The notes under the pieces are model-generated. The model searched no databases. It was given only the letters and a program-made list of their open reading frames with translations, and was not told the origin of the DNA. Positions 2,022 to 18,558 of a DNA stretch of 47,081 nt are shown piece by piece. The position numbers and the translations under genes are program-made. The stretch covers positions 1 through 47,081 of the forward strand of contig JALSKB010000176.1 of NCBI GenBank assembly GCA_026989035.1. Direction: 5' to 3'. How positions within the stretch are numbered: the stretch's first letter is position 1; the number at the start of each line of letters is the position of its first letter. This DNA is from Saprospiraceae bacterium (GTDB lineage: Bacteria; Bacteroidota; Bacteroidia; Chitinophagales; Saprospiraceae).

Positions 2022-2933
2022 TCATGTATAGAATTCCAACAATTCCCTGACTTTTCGGTAATAGGCCCGACCAAAAAGGTTCAGATGCACCAAAAGATAG
2101 TACAATTGGTACAGGCCCTGACGTTCTCCATAAGCCGGAATCAAAGGAAAAGCCTCTCTGTATGCGCTGTAAAAGGCTTCATCAAAACCTCCGAAAAGGC
2201 GGCTCATCGCCAAATCCATTTCGCGATGGCCGTAATAAGGCGCAGGGTCTATCAGCCAACTGCGCCCTTGTTGATCACAGAGGAAGTTCCCACTCCAGAG
2301 GTCTCCGTGAATCAACTGTGGCCCCTCCTCGGGCAGCAAATCGGACAAACGAGATACCAAAGTTTCCAACAACTTCATATCGGCCTTGCCAAAAAGACCT
2401 GCATCTAAAGCGCTGCTCCCTTGAGGTAACAAACGCTCTTCGGCATAAAAATCCGACCAAAGTCGGTGTCGGCGATTGCTCTGCAACAACCTTCCGATAA
2501 AGTTGTCGAAGGGAAAGCCATAAGCCTCGGCAGCAATTCGATGCAAGACGGCCAAAGCACGACCAAAGTGCTCCCAAAAAGCCTTGTCCGGCAACCCCCT
2601 TTCAATATAGGGCAACAACAAAAAGGCATATTGACCCCGCCCCTGACAGGCCAAAGGCCTGGGAACGAGACAAAAATCCCCCTCAGCTTGGTTTTTTTCT
2701 ATGGCTTTCGCCAAATGCCACAAGCCTCGCCCCTCAGCCAAAAAGGCATCGCCCGACTCAGAAGCGGAACCATATTTGAGAAAGTAGTGCTTCCCTTCTC
2801 CGTCAAAAAAAGAAACGGCAGTATGGATATCGCCCCCACGCTCCCTACGCAAATCAGCGGGAAACAACTTGCGCTTTAAAAGCTCTGTCAAAAGAGCCGA
2901 AGGAAGTAGGGGTGGCTTGGAACTGTCTCTCAT
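2022..2933 (-). CDS. Fructosamine kinase family protein (FN3K/YniA-like)
   Basis: 303 residues of the protein-kinase-like aminoglycoside phosphotransferase fold. Visible motifs are the nucleotide-binding lysine strand (HYFLKYGSA), the catalytic loop HGDLWSGNF near residue 205, and the metal-binding segment WLIDPAPYYGHREMDLAM, which is diagnostic for fructosamine-3-kinases. Known members phosphorylate ketoamines on glycated proteins or small molecules, so a cytoplasmic repair or deglycation role is likely, but the substrate is inferred. The gene follows the di-haem peroxidase after only 24 bases, so the two are probably co-transcribed. Length fits the family (about 290 residues). Confidence 0.85.
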   Translation of the reverse strand: MRDSSKPPLLPSALLTELLKRKLFPADLRRERGGDIHTAVSFFDGEGKHYFLKYGSASESGDAFLAEGRGLWHLAKAIEKNQAEGDFCLVPRPLACQGRGQYAFLLLPYIERGLPDKAFWEHFGRALAVLHRIAAEAYGFPFDNFIGRLLQSNRRHRLWSDFYAEERLLPQGSSALDAGLFGKADMKLLETLVSRLSDLLPEEGPQLIHGDLWSGNFLCDQQGRSWLIDPAPYYGHREMDLAMSRLFGGFDEAFYSAYREAFPLIPAYGERQGLYQLYYLLVHLNLFGRAYYRKVRELLEFYT

Positions 2934-2957
2934 AAATCATCCGAAAAAATCCGCTTT

Positions 2958-4067
2958 CTACTCAAACGGATTGGAAAAACGCTCGTCTAAGACAAGACTG
3001 GAATCCGTCAGCGTATAGAGGAAGTTGATGAGATCCTGCTTTTGAGATTCGGAAAGGTTGATGGGGAAAGAGAGGTTCTCATCCAAATTATCGGCAAAGT
3101 GGACGTGATCGCTATATTGGTCTATCACCTCCTCCAGGGTTTCAAAGCGGCCATCGTGCATGTAAGGTGCCGTAAACACCAAGTTGCGCAAGGTAGGTGC
3201 CCGGAACTTGCCATTATCGAAAGTCTTTCCCGTAATTTCACCCCGCCCCAAATCGGGAAAATCGTCAAGCGTAGCCACCTCCTCTATGCCGTTGTTGAAA
3301 AAGTCGTTGTTGCCGAAAAGCGGAGCATTGTGGCAATGAAAGCACTGGGCATCGGGCAGTGCACTGCCCGGAAAGTCGAAAAACATCTCAAAGCCTCGAT
3401 ACTCCGAATCGGTAAACTCCACCGTGGGGTCGTTGTACAAGAATTTTTTGTCAAACTTGGAATTAAAAGTCAATAGCGTGCGCTCAAACTGAGCAATGGC
3501 CTTGACGACCAGCTCTTTACTAATTTCCCCGCTATCCGAAATGCCAAACGCCTTGCGAAACATGGCCGGATAATCGGAATGCCTGCGCAAACGCTGTTCC
3601 ACCGTCGCCCAATCGTTGCGCATTTCAACAGGATTCGTTACGGGCTGCAAGGCCTGATCCTCCAAACTGGGTGAACGCCCATCCCAAAACAGCCCTGCCG
3701 TAACAAAGCCCAAATTCATAATCGCCATGGCGCTGCGCGTACCCTGCAAACCCATCACACCATCGCTCACGGCTTTGTTGTCGGTAAACGCTCCCTCCTG
3801 CAGATGACAGGTAGAACAGGATACGGTGCTGTCCAAAGACAAAATGGGATCGTAAAAAAGATGCCGTCCCAAATCGATCCCCTCTTCAGTCAATGGATTA
3901 TCGGCAGGAATATCCATAGGTGGAAACCCCTCAGGCAACTGCAAATGATAAGCCGTAGGAGCATAGGGAATATCTTCCAAATCGCCTTTCACCGGTGGTT
4001 GTGGCTCAGGAGGCCGACAAGAGAACACCAACAAAAACAAGGAGAAAAAAAGGAGTTTGCTTTTCAT
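2958..4067 (-). CDS. Di-haem cytochrome-c peroxidase / MauG-MbnH-type lipoprotein
   Basis: The start at 4067 (MKSKLLFFSLFLLVFSC) gives a lipoprotein signal with the acceptor cysteine at residue 17; the longer frame to 4115 lacks this logic. Two c-type haem sites are visible, CSTCH (about 84-88) and CFHCH (about 242-246), with the conserved FWDGRSPSLEDQA and PYMHDGRFETLEEV segments. Known members either reduce peroxide (CcpA) or, in the MauG/MbnH branch, oxidise tryptophans of a partner protein through a bis-Fe(IV) state. Two MbnP-like genes lie directly upstream, which favours the MbnH-like role. It should act on the periplasmic face of a membrane. Which branch it belongs to cannot be settled by eye. 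Confidence 0.87.
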   Translation of the reverse strand: MKSKLLFFSLFLLVFSCRPPEPQPPVKGDLEDIPYAPTAYHLQLPEGFPPMDIPADNPLTEEGIDLGRHLFYDPILSLDSTVSCSTCHLQEGAFTDNKAVSDGVMGLQGTRSAMAIMNLGFVTAGLFWDGRSPSLEDQALQPVTNPVEMRNDWATVEQRLRRHSDYPAMFRKAFGISDSGEISKELVVKAIAQFERTLLTFNSKFDKKFLYNDPTVEFTDSEYRGFEMFFDFPGSALPDAQCFHCHNAPLFGNNDFFNNGIEEVATLDDFPDLGRGEITGKTFDNGKFRAPTLRNLVFTAPYMHDGRFETLEEVIDQYSDHVHFADNLDENLSFPINLSESQKQDLINFLYTLTDSSLVLDERFSNPFE

Positions 4068-4165
4068 AGATCGAAGTTCTTGCCAAATGAGTGCACCGAC
4101 AAGAGAATTGTTCACCTAAACCAAAAAACTTTTGAGGTTTAAAATTCAGAGCCTTGCGGCAAAAA

Positions 4166-4918
4166 TCAATCAATGCCGAAATCCTGAATCATGTTGTCCA
4201 TAAACTTCATGGCCCAAGTGAGGTTGTCAATGGTGTGCGTCGCCGGATGAGCTATAACGTCTATATAACCGTCTCCCTCTTTGAAACAGTGATGCAGATC
4301 TACCTTCAAAGGAATCACCGCTGTGCCCTTTTTATCCAAAGTAAAAGCGTAGGTCAGCTCTTTGCTGCGATAAACCTCATCGGAACCACAGTGATACAAA
4401 ACGGCACCGTCGTCAAAAACACCGTCCCCGTTGGCATCAATTTTACCGCTGGTCATACTAAAAATATAGCTCTCCCAGGCATCCCAGTAATGAGAATCTT
4501 TCGCCAACGGATGTCCCGAAGGATAATCCGAAGCACGTGTTTCGTTGAGCATCATAGGCACACCTATGCCTATCTGCACGGCCTTGTATTTGCCGGAAGG
4601 CAAATCGGGAAAGCTCAAAGTAAAGCCCTGCTGTGCCAAGCTCAAGTTGTCCATATCGTCGAAATCCACAAAATCAATATCGGTCAATTCCACCGGCTCC
4701 CCGTCTTCCTTAATCAAACGAATATTGGAAACGTAAAAGTTAAAACCGGAAAAAAAGACGTCCAAGGTATCGTTGTAGGCATAGGGCTCCATCATCACCA
4801 AAGGAGAGCCGTCGTAAAGCGCCTTAAAGTTCAATACAACGGTGCCCTTGCCTTCTTTGTTGCAAGAAGACAGTGCAGCCAAGGCGAAAAGAGCAAAGAA
4901 GAAAGATTTTTTTTTCAT
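4166..4918 (-). CDS. MbnP-family lipoprotein (probable partner of the di-haem enzyme)
   Basis: 250 residues with a lipoprotein signal (MKKKSFFFALFALAALSSC, Cys19). The body shows the MbnP pattern: VVLNFKALYDG strand, FFSGFNFYVSNIRLI, YKAVQIGIGVP, then SHYWDAWESYIFSMTSGKIDANGD with Trp145 and Trp148, and a C-terminal VDLHHCF. In characterised MbnP a tryptophan in this aromatic segment is converted to kynurenine by MbnH and then helps bind copper. The MauG-type gene begins 98 bases downstream. A copper-binding periplasmic role is inferred from the family. The paralogue upstream (5142-5972) lacks the WxxW pair. Confidence 0.78.
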   Translation of the reverse strand: MKKKSFFFALFALAALSSCNKEGKGTVVLNFKALYDGSPLVMMEPYAYNDTLDVFFSGFNFYVSNIRLIKEDGEPVELTDIDFVDFDDMDNLSLAQQGFTLSFPDLPSGKYKAVQIGIGVPMMLNETRASDYPSGHPLAKDSHYWDAWESYIFSMTSGKIDANGDGVFDDGAVLYHCGSDEVYRSKELTYAFTLDKKGTAVIPLKVDLHHCFKEGDGYIDVIAHPATHTIDNLTWAMKFMDNMIQDFGID

Positions 4919-5141
4919 GCTTAATGTTTTATGCCTGTAGCCTAATTGGCCAAATGAATAGCCTGTTAAAAACTGTTCCTTCTCCCCCCCTTGAGCAGCA
5001 AAGCGGTCAACTCATCATCAGCTGCGCTGTCTTTTGAGCTGCTGCACACATGCATTTAATAAATAAACGTACAGCAGGCTCAATTCGTTTGGGCTAAAAT
5101 GGGTGATTTTGGTCAAACGGGCGACGGCCACCTACAAAAAA

Positions 5142-5972
5142 CTACCAGGAAAAAGCATCCGGCAATTGATTGTGTAGGCGCGTTTCCAAGGCCTCAATTT
5201 GATCGTGGCGCACATCTGCCCCTTGGAGCCACGCCAAATAATTGAACTGCAACTTAAGTACAGCATCGCTTCCCGGCATCAGTTCAAAAGGGGTGTTATT
5301 TGCCGAAAGGCTGACCCGAACCGGTTCAAAGATACGCAAAACGATGGAATCGGAAAGTTGGTCGGCATCTCGATACATGGCCAACCGCAGAGGAATATAG
5401 CCCAAGCCCTCTTCCCAATTCAAACTGTCGGAGCGAAATTGTAACGGATGCCCCTCCGGCATACGGCTGATGTCCGCCGTTTGAATTTCGGGAGGCAAGC
5501 CCACCCAAAAAATCAGTGAATCAAACGAACCGTACTCACGCAAAGTGCCGATGAGTAAGTTGGAGGAAGAACCCGCCTCTACCAAAACGAAATCGTCTTT
5601 GCTCTGCCGACGCTCCCCCTGGGCATCATACCAACTGAGCTCATCACTGACTTCCAAATTGGCTTGCGGGCCTTTCAACTCAAAATCGTACAAATAGAAA
5701 AAAAGACTTTGAAAGCGAAAGCTATCCTGCTCATGAGGAGCTACGGCATAAGCGCTGTCGTAGGAAAAAACAAAGCTGGTATCCGGTTGATCTGCAGGTA
5801 TTATCCGATGTTGAGGGGAAAGAAAAAGGGAGGGATATTGACAACAATCCGCACAGGGTCGATCAGCACTCAGGTCAAAATTGGTCGCCTGAAGATCCAG
5901 ACAACCCTCTCGTCGTTCATAACAAGCGGAAAGCGAAAAAAGCAAAGCGAGAAAAAAGGCGACGACTTTCAT
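5142..5972 (-). CDS. Second, divergent MbnP-like lipoprotein
   Basis: The start at 5972 (MKVVAFFLALLFSLSAC) gives a lipoprotein signal; the frame is open 63 bases further up but without a signal. After the acceptor cysteine comes a Cys-rich head, GCLDLQATNFDLSADRPCADCC, of the ATNFD type seen in many Bacteroidota secreted proteins. Next are MbnP-like elements: SLFFYLYDFEL, FDSLIFWVGLPPEIQ and PEGHPL (compare PSGHPL in the neighbour). Only one tryptophan (LNWEEGLGYIPL) is found where the neighbour has WDAW. It may therefore be a structural or metal-carrying paralogue not modified in the same way. It is upstream of the 4166 gene in the same direction, 223 bases away. Confidence 0.62.
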   Translation of the reverse strand: MKVVAFFLALLFSLSACYERREGCLDLQATNFDLSADRPCADCCQYPSLFLSPQHRIIPADQPDTSFVFSYDSAYAVAPHEQDSFRFQSLFFYLYDFELKGPQANLEVSDELSWYDAQGERRQSKDDFVLVEAGSSSNLLIGTLREYGSFDSLIFWVGLPPEIQTADISRMPEGHPLQFRSDSLNWEEGLGYIPLRLAMYRDADQLSDSIVLRIFEPVRVSLSANNTPFELMPGSDAVLKLQFNYLAWLQGADVRHDQIEALETRLHNQLPDAFSW

Positions 5973-6079: not shown

Positions 6080-6245
6080 GAGGGGCTGACGCCTACCAAA
6101 CTCCCTATCTTTCGCTCGTTCGCGAGTTGTAAATATCCCAAACCATTTCAGTTTGGATATAAAAGTTCCAAGCCGGATAAACTATCTACTTTCTTTCTAC
6201 GTTTTGGGATAGGCAGTTGTGCCTTTGCATGAAGACTTTTACGTC

Positions 6246-7523
6246 ATGAAACGTTTTATTCTTTTTTTTGTTTTCTCGTTTTTTTCGATTTGGCATCTGC
6301 AAGCTTCTTACATCCTCATTCCCATGGATGAGCGGCAAACCGATCACCTCAAAGCCTATGGCATCACCTATTGGGTTTTGGAAAATGGAGCTGAAGCCTG
6401 GTGGCTGTTAAATTATCGAGGTGGTAGCTTTGCCTTTCGGCAAATTCCGTCTTTTGAACGAGAGTGCCGCATTCGCAATGTAAGCTATGAAGTCTTACCC
6501 GATGCCGCTTTCAACAATATCCTCAACGAAATTGCCGATCCCGAGGTGAATATGGATGCCATCAAGCTCGAAAAAGCGCCCAAAATTGCCGTTTATACGC
6601 CCGACTTTAATGCCAAAGGAGAACGCATCCAGCCCTGGGACGATGCCGTAACCCTGGTGCTGACTTATGCGGAAATTCCCTACGAAACCATTTACGACGA
6701 TGACGTTTTGAACGACCGATTGGCCGAGTTTGACTGGCTTCATCTGCATCACGAAGATTTTACCGGACAATACGGGCGTTTTTACCGTTCCTTTCACAAC
6801 TATCCCTGGTACCAGGAAAACGTAAGGCGCATGGAAGCTCTGGCCCACAAACACGGCTTTCAAAAGGTCTCCCAGCTCAAACTGGCCGTGGTCAAAAAAA
6901 TCAGAGAATACGTCATCGGCGGAGGTTTCATGTTTGCCATGTGCTCGGCAACGGACACCTACGACATCGCCTTGGCTGCAGATGGCGTGGACATCTGCGC
7001 CAAATACTATGATGGAGACCCCGCTGACCCCAATGCTCAGCAAAAACTCCACTACGACAACACCTTCGCCTTTTGGAATTTTCAGCTAACCAAGGACCCG
7101 CTGGAGTACGAGTTTTCCAACATTGACAACACCCGAGATCGCAAAATCCCCCCTGAGCAAGATTATTTCACGCTCTTCGATTTTTCCGCCAAATGGGATC
7201 CCGTCCCCACCATGCTCACACAATGCCACACCCGCACCATCAAGGGGTTCATGGGGCAAACCACCGCGTTCAAAAAGGCGCTCATCAAGCCCAATGTGCT
7301 CATTATGGGAGAAACCAAACCCCTGAAGGAAGCCCGCTACATCCATGGCAGCATGGGAAAGGGTACCTGGACTTTCTACGGCGGGCACGATCCCGAAGAC
7401 TACAGGCACTTCGTCAACGATCCGGAAACCGACCTGAGTTTACACCCCAATTCGCCGGGCTATCGTCTCATTTTGAACAATGTGCTGTTTCCCGCTGCCC
7501 GAAAGAAGAAAAGAAAGACTTAA
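6246..7523 (+). CDS. Secreted class-I amidotransferase-like protein (often named asparagine synthetase B)
   Basis: The start at 6246 (MKRFILFFVFSFFSIWHLQAS) gives a signal peptide; the 27 bases upstream in frame add nothing. The mature part opens with YILIPMDERQTDHLKAYGITYW, as in a Bacteroidota family commonly labelled asparagine synthetase B. No PP-loop synthetase domain or N-terminal Cys is present, so that name is doubtful. Instead GGGFMFAMCSATD (around residue 230) looks like the nucleophile elbow of the class I glutamine amidotransferase/ThuA-like fold, and PKIAVYTPDFN resembles a Rossmann strand. Location would be periplasmic or outer surface. Actual reaction unknown. The enoyl-CoA hydratase follows 34 bases downstream. 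Confidence 0.65.
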   Translation: MKRFILFFVFSFFSIWHLQASYILIPMDERQTDHLKAYGITYWVLENGAEAWWLLNYRGGSFAFRQIPSFERECRIRNVSYEVLPDAAFNNILNEIADPEVNMDAIKLEKAPKIAVYTPDFNAKGERIQPWDDAVTLVLTYAEIPYETIYDDDVLNDRLAEFDWLHLHHEDFTGQYGRFYRSFHNYPWYQENVRRMEALAHKHGFQKVSQLKLAVVKKIREYVIGGGFMFAMCSATDTYDIALAADGVDICAKYYDGDPADPNAQQKLHYDNTFAFWNFQLTKDPLEYEFSNIDNTRDRKIPPEQDYFTLFDFSAKWDPVPTMLTQCHTRTIKGFMGQTTAFKKALIKPNVLIMGETKPLKEARYIHGSMGKGTWTFYGGHDPEDYRHFVNDPETDLSLHPNSPGYRLILNNVLFPAARKKKRKT

Positions 7524-14039: not shown

Positions 14040-16400
14040 TCAGGCTCCGCAACTCAGGCAATCGGGATCATCCAGGCTACAGGCCTGCGCCTTGTTCTCT
14101 ACCAGGTCTTTAGCCGTAACCCGTTGCTGCTGTAATTTTTGATCAATCGTAAATTTGATGGGATCTACCGCAGCCTGGCTACGCAAATAGTACATACCCG
14201 TTTTCAAGCCTTTCTTCCAGGCATAGAAGTGCATGGAGGTGAGCTGTGCTGCCGAAGGCGATTTGAGGAAAAGGTTCATGCTCTGACTTTGACAAATGAA
14301 AGCTCCCCGATCGGCAGCCAAATCGATGATGGTTTTTTGACTGATTTCCCAGACGGTTTTGTACAAAGCTTTCAATTCTTCCGGAATTTCCTCGATATGT
14401 TGAATGCTGCCGTTGGCTGCAATGATGCGCTCCTTCATTTCATCACTCCACAACCCCAGCCCAACCAAATCTTTGAGCAAGTGCTTGTTGACCACCAAAA
14501 ATTCTCCGGACAGCGTCCGACGCGAATAGATGTTGGAGGTATAAGGTTCAAAACATTCGTTGTTGCCCAGGATTTGTGAAGTTGAAGCTGTAGGCATAGG
14601 CGCTACCAGCAAACTGTTGCGCAAGCCGTATTGCCTGATGTTTGCCTTGAGCGCATCCCAATCCCAACGGTCGGAAGGCTGTACATTCCACAAGTCAAAC
14701 TGCAGGCGTCCTTCACTGGCCGGAGAACCTGCAAAAGTCTCGTACGGGCCTTGTTCTTTGGCCAGTTCACAAGACTCCGTCAGGGCTGCAAAGTAAATGG
14801 CTTCAAAAATATCGCGGTTGAGTTGACGGGCTTCCTTGCTGTCGAAGGGATAACGCATCAGGATGAAGGCATCGGCCAACCCCTGCACGCCAATACCAAT
14901 GGGGCGATGGCGGAGGTTCGACTTGCGGGCCTCGGGTATGGGGTAATAATTGATGTCGATGACCTTGTTCAAATTGCGGGTAACCACGCGGGTGATTTCT
15001 ACCAACTTGTCCAAATCAAAGCTGCGATCTTCGCGAACAAATTTGGGCAAAGCAATAGAAGCCAGGTTACAGACGGCCACCTCATCCGGAGCCGTGTATT
15101 CGATAATTTCGGTGCAAAGATTTGACGAACGAATGACACCTAGATTCTGTTGGTTGGATTTTTTATTCGCCGCATCCTTGTACAGCAGGTAAGGCGTGCC
15201 GGTTTCGACTTGGCTATCGAGGATGGCCTGCCACAATTCCCGTGCACGTATGGTTTTGCGCGCACGTCCCTCCTGCTCGTACTGGTGGTAGAGTTGTTCA
15301 AACTTCCCTCCGTAACTGTCGTACAAGCCCGGAGCCTCATTCGGACAGAAGAGCGACCAATCTTCGTCTTTTTCCACGCGCTGCATAAAGAGGTCGGGAA
15401 TCCACAAGCCGTAAAAGAGATCGCGAGCACGCAGCTCTTCTTTCCCGTGGTTTTTCTTGAGTTCGAGAAAATCGAAGATATCGGCATGCCAGGGTTCCAG
15501 GTAAATGGCAAAAGCTCCTTTACGCTTTCCGCCTCCCTGATCTACGTAACGGGCCGTGTCGTTAAAAACCCGCAACATGGGGACAATACCGTTGGAGGAG
15601 CCGCCCGTTCCACGAATGTAAGAACCTTTGGCCCTGATGTTGTGGATACTCAAGCCGATACCACCTGCCGATTGAGAAATCTTGGCACAACGGCTAAGGG
15701 TTTCAAAAATGCCCGGGATGCTGTCTTCTGTCATAGACAACAAAAAACAGGAAGAGAGCTGGGGCCGTGGCGTAGCTGCGTTAAAAAGCGTAGGCGTAGC
15801 ATGGGTAAACCACTTCTCCGACATCAGGTTATAGGTCTCTATAGCCGCATCAATGTCTTCCCCGTGAATGCCGACAGCCGTGCGCATGATGAGATGCTGA
15901 GGGCGTTCGACCACTTGGCCATTCATGCGCAAAAGATAGGAACGCTCCAACGTTTTAAAGCCAAAGTAGTCGAAGGTATAATCTCTGTCATAAATGATGG
16001 CGCTATCCAGGCGATCGGCGTATTTTTCCATGACAGTCATGGCCTCATCGCTGATCAAACCCGCTTTCTCACCCGTTTTGGGGTCGATATAATCGTACAA
16101 TTTGCGCATGGTGCGCACAAAAGACTTGTCGGTGTTTTTGTGCAAATTGGAAACGGCAATGCGAGCGGCTAAAATGGCGTAATCCGGATGCCGACTGGTG
16201 AGGCTGGCGGAGATTTCCGCAGCCAAATTGTCCAGCTCGGTGGTGCTCACACCATCGTACAACCCCTGAATGACCATTTTGGCCACCTCAATGGGCTCAA
16301 TGAATTTGGGATCCAGGCCATAACACAGCTTTTTTATCCGAGCTGTTATTTTGTCAAAGCTGACGTCTTCGCGTTTTCCGCTGCGCTTGATAACTTGCAT
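14040..16400 (-). CDS. nrdA: Ribonucleoside-diphosphate reductase, alpha subunit (class Ia)
   Basis: 786 residues. An N-terminal ATP-cone ([18 protein letters not shown] to about residue 95) provides allosteric control by ATP/dATP. The catalytic ten-stranded barrel follows, with [13 protein letters not shown] (first redox Cys), RSSNLCTEI (thiyl-radical Cys region with N, C and E) and [18 protein letters not shown]. The tail ends CLSCGA, the pair that passes electrons from thioredoxin or glutaredoxin. It makes dNDPs from NDPs with NrdB in the cytoplasm. It lies 106 bases after nrdB in one operon. Length fits the eukaryote-like class Ia group. Confidence 0.97.
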
Positions 16401-16506: not shown

Positions 16507-17487
16507 TCAAAAGTCTTCTTCCAGCGAAAAGCTCTTTTCCGAAGATGAGTTGTTAAGCACACCGCTCTTTTGATAATCGCCTACCCGCTTTTCAAAAAAG
16601 TTGGTTTTCCCTTGCACACTGATCAGCTCCATCCAGGGAAAGGGATTGGCCGACTGGTAGAGAGGTTTTTGATTCAACGCCTGAAGAAGCCGATCGGCAA
16701 CAAACTCAATGTATTGACACATGGATTCGGCATTCATCCCTATGAGACGAACGGGCAAAGCCTCAGAGACAAACTCCTTTTCCAATTCTACTGCACTGGC
16801 AATAATCTCCCGTACTTTTTCGTCCGGCAACTTGTTGACGACGTGATCGTTGTAAAGCAGGCAAGCAAAATCACAGTGCAAGCCCTCATCGCGCGAGATG
16901 AGCTCATTGGAAAAGGACAGACCCGGCATAAGCCCTCTATGCTTCAGCCAAAAAATCGAACAAAAAGACCCCGAGAAGAATATGCCCTCTACGGCCGCAA
17001 AAGCGATCAAGCGCTCTTGAAAAGAACCTCGCTCAATCCAACGCAATGCCCAATCGGCTTTCTTGCGAACAAACTCCATGTTTTCAATCGCACGGAAAAG
17101 GTAATCCTTCTCTTTGGGGTCTTTGATGTAAGTATCAATAAGCAGGCTGTAAGTTTCCGAATGAATGTTCTCTATGGCAATTTGAAAACCGTAAAAAAAA
17201 CGCGCCTCGGTGTATTGCACCTCCCGCACAAAGTTTTCTGCCAGGTTTTCATTGACAATGCCGTCGCTGGCTGCAAAAAAGGCCAAAACGTGCTTGATAA
17301 AATGGCGCTCGTTGTCGTTTAGCTTCTCTTCCCAATCCGTCAAATCTTGGGCCAAGTCTATCTCGTTGGCATGCCAAATGCTGGCCTCTGCATTCTTGTA
17401 AAACTGCCAAATATCGTCGTGCTCTATCGGAAAGAGGACAAAGCGATTGGGATTCTCCTGAAGTAAAGGTTCCGGTGTCTTATTCAT
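16507..17487 (-). CDS. nrdB: Ribonucleoside-diphosphate reductase, beta subunit (class Ia, eukaryote-like)
   Basis: 326 residues. Di-iron ligands and the radical tyrosine are in place: an early acidic ligand in [24 protein letters not shown] (Glu, His, radical Tyr), [12 protein letters not shown] (Glu) and [15 protein letters not shown] (Glu, His). It is strikingly like animal R2: [24 protein letters not shown] and [21 protein letters not shown]. The C-terminal FSLEEDF is the tail that docks on NrdA. The gene leads the nrdB-nrdA operon and has an unusual control region upstream with DnaA boxes and a 20-bp palindrome. Confidence 0.97.
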
Positions 17488-17550: not shown

Positions 17551-17672
17551 GCAACAAATGGCTAAAAATCAGGGAGGTAGGGGGTAAATCCTGCTGTTTT
17601 CTCAATAGTATGTCTCCCTTAACATTTTGCAGGCACTAAGGTAAGGCAAAATCCGCAGGTCTGGCTTACAAG

Positions 17673-17769
17673 TTTTCCACAGAATGTGGAAAAAATCACA
17701 ACAAGCTGATAATCAATGATTTATATCGTGTTATTTCAAGCACAAAATGTGGATAAATCAAGCACAAAA
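17673..17769. promoter_or_regulatory. DnaA-box cluster upstream of nrdB-nrdA
   Basis: Three DnaA-type 9-mers: TTTTCCACA at 17673-17681, its exact inverted copy TGTGGAAAA at 17685-17693 (3-base spacer), and TGTGGATAA at 17748-17756, which is a perfect TTATCCACA box on the minus strand. The third is flanked by 12-base direct repeats, TCAAGCACAAAA at 17736-17747 and 17758-17769, 22 bases apart. The stretch between the boxes is A/T-rich. DnaA is known to regulate nrdAB in E. coli, so replication-linked control of the operon is plausible. A replication origin is the alternative. Confidence 0.55.
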
Positions 17770-17861
17770 AGGAAAAGGTCATTTTTTCAACTTTCCTTTC
17801 CCCTTGCAAGCATAGCCGAATGAGCACTGTTGAGGGTCAAAAAGCTCAGGACGAGGCCGCT

Positions 17862-18558
17862 TCAGCCCAAGAGTTTTTCGCGCAAACGCGGTATAGCTTC
17901 TGCAGCCGGAGCAGCGATGATTTCCAAATGAGCCCGCGCGCGAAGCTCGGGATTCAAGCTGGGCTTGGGGTCCACGTAATACACTCGGGCATCGGGCGGA
18001 GCAAAGCCGACCAGGCCTGCTGCAGGATATACCTGCATGGAAGTGCCTACTACGAGCAACACATCTGCCCGACTCACCCATTCGGCAGCACGCGGCAAAA
18101 GGGGAACCTCCTCGCCAAACCACACGATGTGGGCGCAATTGTGAACCTTTCTCACAACAGTCGCCCCAGTGCAAATCTTTTGACCAAGAGTAAACCAAGG
18201 AGGGCTCAACCGTACTGCGCACTTTCAACAACTCCCCGTGCAAATGCAGTACCCTCTTGCTCCCGGCACGCTCGTGCAAATCATCGACATTTTGCGTGAT
18301 GATATCCACCTCAAAATCTTCTTGCCAGGCAGCCAAAGCCAAATGAGCGGCATTCGGCTGAGCTTCCAAGACCTGCCGACGGCGTGCATTGTAAAACTCC
18401 AACACCAATTCGGGATTTTTCTGCCAGGCCTCAGGTGTAGCCACTTCGTAAATGTCGTACTGTTCCCACAAACCACCGGAATCCCGAAAAGTACTTAGAC
18501 CACTCTCCGCACTAATACCGGCACCTGTCAAGACGACGATGCACTTTCCTTTTGCCAT
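17862..18558 (-). pseudogene. NAD-dependent protein deacylase (class III sirtuin), frameshifted
   Basis: Frame one runs from ATG 18558: VVLTGAGISAESGLSTFRDS, FYNARRRQV (the Y-x-x-R of desuccinylase-type sirtuins), IITQNVDDLHERAGS, HLHGEL, up to GSQLRPH at about 18130. The family then needs IVWFGE, which appears only in the next frame (HIVWFGEEVPLLPRAAEW, LLVVGTSMQVYPAAGL) and stops at 17862. Joining at 18127-18131 gives about 232 residues, the normal length. Losing two bases (ATAT to AT) or gaining one would explain it. No slippery heptamer is apparent. The start overlaps the 3' end of nnr by 31 bases, which suggests an NAD-related operon. Either a real mutation or a sequencing error. Confidence 0.85.

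Follow-up and report, generated by a model that had tools for sequence, protein, structure and literature searches.

A promoter-locked arrangement of DnaA boxes likely to control the class I ribonucleotide reductase genes nrdBA in a Saprospiraceae bacterium

DnaA boxes and short repeats upstream of the ribonucleotide reductase (RNR) genes nrdB and nrdA in a Saprospiraceae genome raise the question of whether they serve replication-linked control of RNR or form part of a replication origin. Both readings had been offered in a preliminary description of this DNA, along with the suggestion that control by DnaA in Bacteroidota would be convergent with that in Escherichia coli. The stretch of DNA analyzed here, hereafter called the window, is 47,081 nucleotides long and is contig C176 of a 215-contig, 3.12-Mb genome.

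Results

Layout of the site

The site is flanked by a Sir2-family gene on one side and by nrdB-nrdA on the other, and all of these genes are on the minus strand. The names given to the two downstream genes in the preliminary description proved correct when their identification was checked. The features considered here are as follows.

14040..16400, minus strand: nrdA, class I RNR alpha subunit with an N-terminal ATP-cone
16507..17487, minus strand: nrdB, class I RNR beta subunit
17636..17643, minus strand: -7 promoter element TACCTTAG, matching TAnnTTTG at 5 of 6 positions, 29 bp from the proximal pair
17673..17693, no strand: proximal head-to-head DnaA-box pair, TTTTCCACA-N3-TGTGGAAAA, both boxes exact
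17673-17681, plus strand: proximal box 1, TTTTCCACA, exact TTWTCCACA
17685-17693, minus strand: proximal box 2, TTTTCCACA, exact TTWTCCACA
17699..17711, minus strand: TATCAGCTTGTTG, an IHF-consensus site in the spacer that separates the proximal pair from the distal box; slot-specific in relatives
17711..17723, plus strand: another IHF-consensus match, AATCAATGATTTA; the 47-kb window has no others besides these two
17748..17756, minus strand: distal DnaA box TTATCCACA, exact; in relatives, a plus box is found repeatedly 63-66 bp ahead of where the proximal pair begins
17736..17769, no strand: 12-base direct repeats TCAAGCACAAAA at 17736-17747 and 17758-17769, flanking the distal box, 22 bp apart

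The inverted pair and the additional perfect box had already been described, and all three are exact matches, for which conservation in relatives is decisive. Four matches to TTWTCCACA are present in the window where 1.12 would be expected, a number equaled or exceeded in 5 of 100 shuffles, so that the count alone is unremarkable and constitutes weak evidence; the genome as a whole, with 106 matches compared with 85 to the reversed pattern, is likewise unremarkable. The site places three boxes in 84 bp of A/T-rich DNA, and no other among the genome places listed is equally dense. At the distal site, some relatives have a pair, TTWTCCACA-N1-TGTGGAWAA, of which the window retains one intact half, the partner half-site beyond the 1-bp spacer being degenerate. 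Reading toward nrdB, a spacer of about 44 bp separates the distal box or boxes from the proximal pair.

Two-box places elsewhere in the window's genome, at L083 2636-2666 (beside an ORF at 2765-5428 that we take to be alaS-like), L084 4033-4074 (in C165), and L085 350-372 (near the edge of C170), are possible further DnaA targets. Upstream of the site, the Sir2/CobB gene (17862-18558, minus strand) is split over two frames, with its N-terminal part in the ORF at 17779-18558 and its C-terminal part in the ORF at 17862-18209, which reflects a frameshift or an assembly error.

Conservation upstream of nrdB

Conservation was assessed in two sets of 80 nrdB loci, which overlap in genomes, with the reversed box pattern as the control. 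Because the loci are related, the box, spacing, and IHF counts given in this and the following sections do not represent independent events. The first set came from 149 genomes of the same order, 80 of which had an nrdB match at a strict threshold, and their 600-bp upstream regions contained 76 matches to TTWTCCACA compared with one to the control; at least one box was present in 46 of the 80 loci (control, one of 80), leaving 34 without an exact box. In the second set, consisting of 80 named loci and retaining L121, L122, and L123 despite upstream regions of 27, 263, and 0 bases, 49 boxes against one control match were found, distributed over 26 of the 80 loci against one of 80, with 54 loci lacking an exact box. 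The nrdB bodies and downstream DNA of this second set, 271 kb in all, yielded two boxes and eight control matches. A similar concentration was seen within 50 loci of the first set, where the 600-bp upstream regions, 29.7 kb in total, held 26 boxes (control, 0). The remaining 446 kb of these loci held 10 (control, 15), a density about 39 times lower, and the other non-ORF gaps no box in 51 kb (control, 1). Conserved DnaA boxes thus occupy the promoter region of the RNR operon, as expected of a DnaA-regulated RNR promoter.

The closest relative found, L086, whose NrdB is 91% identical, has three boxes at the identical offsets of 63 and 12 bp in DNA that has otherwise diverged. The 12-base repeats were looked for in L086 and are absent from it. 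The 22-bp-spaced repeats of the preliminary description are therefore present in the window at the positions listed above, but they fall outside the conserved element and, not being conserved, are probably not functional. By this sequence comparison, significance attaches to the boxes but not to the direct repeats.

Some loci carry other sequences ahead of nrdB. About 250-150 bp upstream of the gene in L012, L014, L015, L016, and L163, variants of a G/C-rich inverted repeat (GGCTAAGGCGGC ... GCCGCCTTAG) lie in the predicted 5' leader; four of these leaders, all except that of L163, were searched against Rfam and gave no match above threshold. A search of nine loci for a known RNA leader upstream of nrdB returned none above the gathering score and three weak sub-threshold matches.

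Spacing between the box pair and the -7 element

The distance from the proximal pair to the promoter was analyzed in 173 non-redundant regions out of 178 upstream regions, 85 of which had an exact box and a sufficient tail. A TAnnTTTG-like element, matching at five or six of six positions, occurs 29-31 bp downstream of the proximal pair in 52 of these 85 loci (28 at 29 bp, 18 at 30 bp, and six at 31 bp), and the remaining 33 have no match at those distances. Every other distance from 0 to 59 bp accounts for 0-4 loci, except that 40 bp, roughly a helical turn further than the main peak, has a smaller peak of six of the 85 loci. An alternative count that includes redundant regions gives 55 of 90 at the locked distance compared with 3.1 expected from the other distances. 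The boxes therefore hold a fixed geometry relative to the promoter.

The locked form is confined to three of the 11 families of the order having an nrdB match, namely f1 (11 of 16 loci), f12 (11 of 16), and f18 (all nine), and is found in none of the other eight. Boxes are present without the locked distance in family f3 (eight of 13 loci) and in f4 and f21 (one of six each). In f3, the loci L043, L045, L047, L048, and L062 have a single TTTTCCACA 316-319 bp upstream of nrdB and no -7 lock, and this family perhaps has a different promoter arrangement.

Both half-sites of the proximal pair are conserved in the aligned promoters. TTWTNCACA is a looser DnaA-box consensus. When the half that had not been used for selection was compared with it in the 51 promoter-locked loci to which this analysis is restricted, 21 were exact, eight had one mismatch, and 22 had two or more.

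The transcription start is predicted at about 17631 from the position of the -7 element. RNA polymerase makes a contact at -33. The pair would lie just upstream of that contact, in what would be an activator-like position. It would cover approximately -62 to -42 because TAnnTTTG is placed at -12 to -5 in a transcriptome study (PMC9723704).

IHF-consensus matches between the boxes

The consensus used for this search was WATCARNNNNTTR, which we take to be that of IHF. Both matches of the window fall between the boxes, at 17699-17723, and their number is not above chance (3.36 expected). In relatives, a preference for this slot was apparent among the 50 promoter-locked loci with a full spacer. 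The 50 bp preceding the proximal pair contained the consensus in 16 of the 50, compared with 0/43, 0/48, 0/48, 1/49, 0/50, 1/39, and 0/33 in seven other slots, and the match was more frequent where a distal box is present, occurring in 12 of 18 loci with that box and in four of 32 without it. The window's genome encodes two proteins of the HU/IHF family (PF00216).

Box pairs at nrdJ, corA, and other sites

Of 61 Saprospiraceae genomes, 24 contained head-to-head pairs with spacers of 1-4 bp, and none contained the control pattern. The pair is upstream of nrdB in 18 of the 24 and upstream of the class II RNR gene nrdJ in three (G196, G187, and G017), and in the other three (G197, G200, and G117) it adjoins corA and the locus examined contains no RNR gene. 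A search for nrdB in G197, G200, G117, G196, and G017 did not find it, while G187 possesses both nrdB and nrdJ and has boxes at both. When nrdJ was searched for independently of the boxes, 10 of 18 loci were boxed, with 22 boxes against one control match; two of the original 20 matches had been dropped because of a missing N terminus, and one of the 18, L281, has 112 upstream bases. Among the 10 boxed nrdJ loci, the -7 match is at 29 bp in two, at 39-40 bp in three, and at 34 bp in one, and is absent in four. No box is present upstream of nrdJ in the window's own genome (L278).

At the corA sites, a -7 match at 29 bp exists in G117 and G200 (L226 and L228) and not in G197 (L225). The pairs of L226 and L228 precede a SpoIIE-domain gene and a DUF6089/OmpA gene, and the corA-linked module may drive another gene or may be a remnant. 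In G181, a second pair is located at a contig edge beside corA and is perhaps the other end of that genome's nrdB locus. Extra sites occur near glnA in G174, near an alpha/beta hydrolase gene in G156, and at an unassigned place in G149; pair sites near genes other than those for RNR include L222, L223, and L224. A phylum-wide search found pairs in 14 of 395 genomes, five within the order and nine outside it. No nrdA or nrdB lies within the approximately 3 kb examined around the nine outside sites, and the pair sites of the order members G081 and G119 also have neither gene nearby. With the promoter lock limited to three of 11 families and the outside pairs away from nrdA and nrdB, the convergent wiring proposed at the outset is plausible.

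DnaA, dnaA, and NrdR

The DnaA protein of the genome has 470 amino acids and keeps GGRDHSTV, presumably its DNA-contacting signature. The region upstream of its gene (L082, about 6090-6490) contains one TTATCCACA, one TTATGCACA, and IHF-consensus matches, which suggests that dnaA itself may be under the same kind of control. Among nine other genomes of the order, two (L212 and L213) have an exact box upstream of dnaA and seven have none; outside the order, dnaA of L240 is preceded by a head-to-head pair. A search for NrdR with TIGR00244 was positive in 9 of 14 controls and in none of the 149 genomes of the order.

An origin of replication and other alternatives

The possibility that the cluster is part of oriC is attractive in that it is the densest group of exact boxes among the genome places listed, is A/T-rich, and in three genomes stays beside corA with no adjacent RNR gene. 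GC skew, however, has the same sign on either side of the site, at -0.086 to the left and -0.163 to the right within the window, and this is also true of the third codon positions of long ORFs in both gene orientations (-0.342 and -0.423 for plus-strand genes, -0.064 and -0.159 for minus-strand genes). Since nine stretches of the genome's other contigs have skews of 0.05 to 0.11 of either sign, a switch would be visible. Around the corA-linked site of G197, all eight sampled 20-kb windows are of one sign (-0.017 to -0.029), and around the sites of G147, G111, and G044 the skew is weak or noisy. As the sign does not change at the site in either the window or G197, we rejected the origin reading of the preliminary description; neither the promoter-locked spacing nor the association with nrdJ is expected of an origin, and we consider this explanation extremely improbable. 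Scarcely more credible is a DnaA titration or reactivation locus of the datA or DARS type that merely happens to adjoin RNR genes. The combination of boxes with a putative IHF-type site does resemble the layout of datA and DARS2, and the three corA sites persist without a neighboring RNR gene, but the -7 lock, which extends to two of those three sites (L226 and L228 at 29 bp, not L225), and the recurrence at nrdJ both point to transcription.

A more serious competitor, although still an unlikely one, is that the boxes form the operator of a dimeric RNR regulator and that its palindrome resembles two DnaA boxes by chance. The proximal site is a 21-bp palindrome with a spacer of mostly 3 bp and a fixed distance to the promoter, the arrangement of DnaA boxes in E. 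coli is not head-to-head, and, as NrdR was not found, another regulator could have taken over. Against this, half-sites are found singly, in tandem, and separated by spacers of 1, 2, 3, and 4 bp, a variety better suited to monomers than to a single rigid dimer, and the half-site is identical to the DnaA box TTATCCACA. In addition, the unselected half varies most at position 5, besides the A/T position 3, as in TTWTNCACA, and exact boxes also precede dnaA in L001, L212, L213, and L240.

Discussion

The element is, in our judgment, very likely the regulatory head of the nrdBA promoter, through which DnaA would control, and probably activate, RNR transcription; it would tie nucleotide supply to replication and is probably not a replication origin. 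The layout read from the sequence is the same in relatives: a distal box site, an IHF-consensus site, the proximal pair, 29 bp, and a -7 element of the Bacteroidota sigma-A type. DnaA would bind the boxes, and an HU/IHF-family protein might bend the spacer of about 44 bp so that DnaA molecules on the distal and proximal sites touch. DnaA at approximately -62 to -42 could then contact RNA polymerase. Judged from geometry alone, the activator sense is the most likely, with activation at low DnaA or by ADP-DnaA and possibly repression at high ATP-DnaA, as for E. coli nrdAB. In this lineage, in which the search for NrdR was negative, RNR expression would thereby be coupled to the replication cycle. 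The replication-linked control put forward in the preliminary description is well supported by the conservation, the rigid distance to the -7 element, and the boxes at nrdJ, while the binding of DnaA itself is a step that we infer.

A wider generalization can be offered tentatively, and we regard it as somewhat less than probable: in Chitinophagales-type Bacteroidota, DnaA might act as a promoter-locked activator from head-to-head pairs, looped by HU/IHF onto a second pair, as a module placed before both class I and class II RNR genes, which would constitute a lineage-specific replacement of NrdR with a DnaA dimer geometry unlike that of E. coli. Because boxes accompany two RNR classes in different gene neighborhoods, selection for the wiring itself is suggested. 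To judge from our literature searches, few studies have addressed how Bacteroidota couple replication to dNTP supply, and here the sequence itself makes the coupling legible, in an order without detected NrdR. The geometry, with head-to-head boxes, an IHF slot, and 29-31 bp to a promoter that is not of the E. coli kind, leads to clear predictions on the contact between DnaA and RNA polymerase.

A search of the open-licence literature turned up no publication in which RNR of Bacteroidota is controlled by DnaA, and the passages of PMC3019208 and PMC5794259 dealing with NrdR or Bacteroidetes contain nothing on RNR transcriptional control in that group. NrdR boxes are short palindromic control sites common to several RNR classes, and the present element is similar in being one such site shared between classes. 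It differs in belonging to an order in which none of the 149 genomes has a TIGR00244 match. In datA, DARS2, and oriC of E. coli, DnaA boxes flank an IHF-type bend site, as they flank consensus matches here, but the present element is tied to a promoter and RNR genes and shows no skew switch.

That DnaA controls RNR is in principle already known from E. coli. Both activation and repression of nrdAB by DnaA are reviewed in PMC8203912, together with proposals of such control for RNR genes of Bacillus subtilis and Caulobacter. According to PMC11317965, E. coli DnaA prefers tandem double boxes 2-3 bp apart and targets nrdA and nrdD; the nrdA pair has a 3-bp spacer (table 1 of that paper), and the double boxes listed there are tandem, not head-to-head. 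As with E. coli nrdAB, class I RNR genes here have DnaA boxes upstream, two of the boxes are separated by a short spacer, and more than one RNR class is a target. Unlike the E. coli arrangement, the pair described here, also with a 3-bp spacer, is head-to-head and not tandem; a second box site lies about 65 bp upstream, and some of the loci have an IHF consensus between the two; and the -7 element, at a fixed 29-31 bp, belongs to the TAnnTTTG type of Bacteroidota. As far as searched, this head-to-head, putatively IHF-bridged, and promoter-locked layout on two RNR classes appears to be new.
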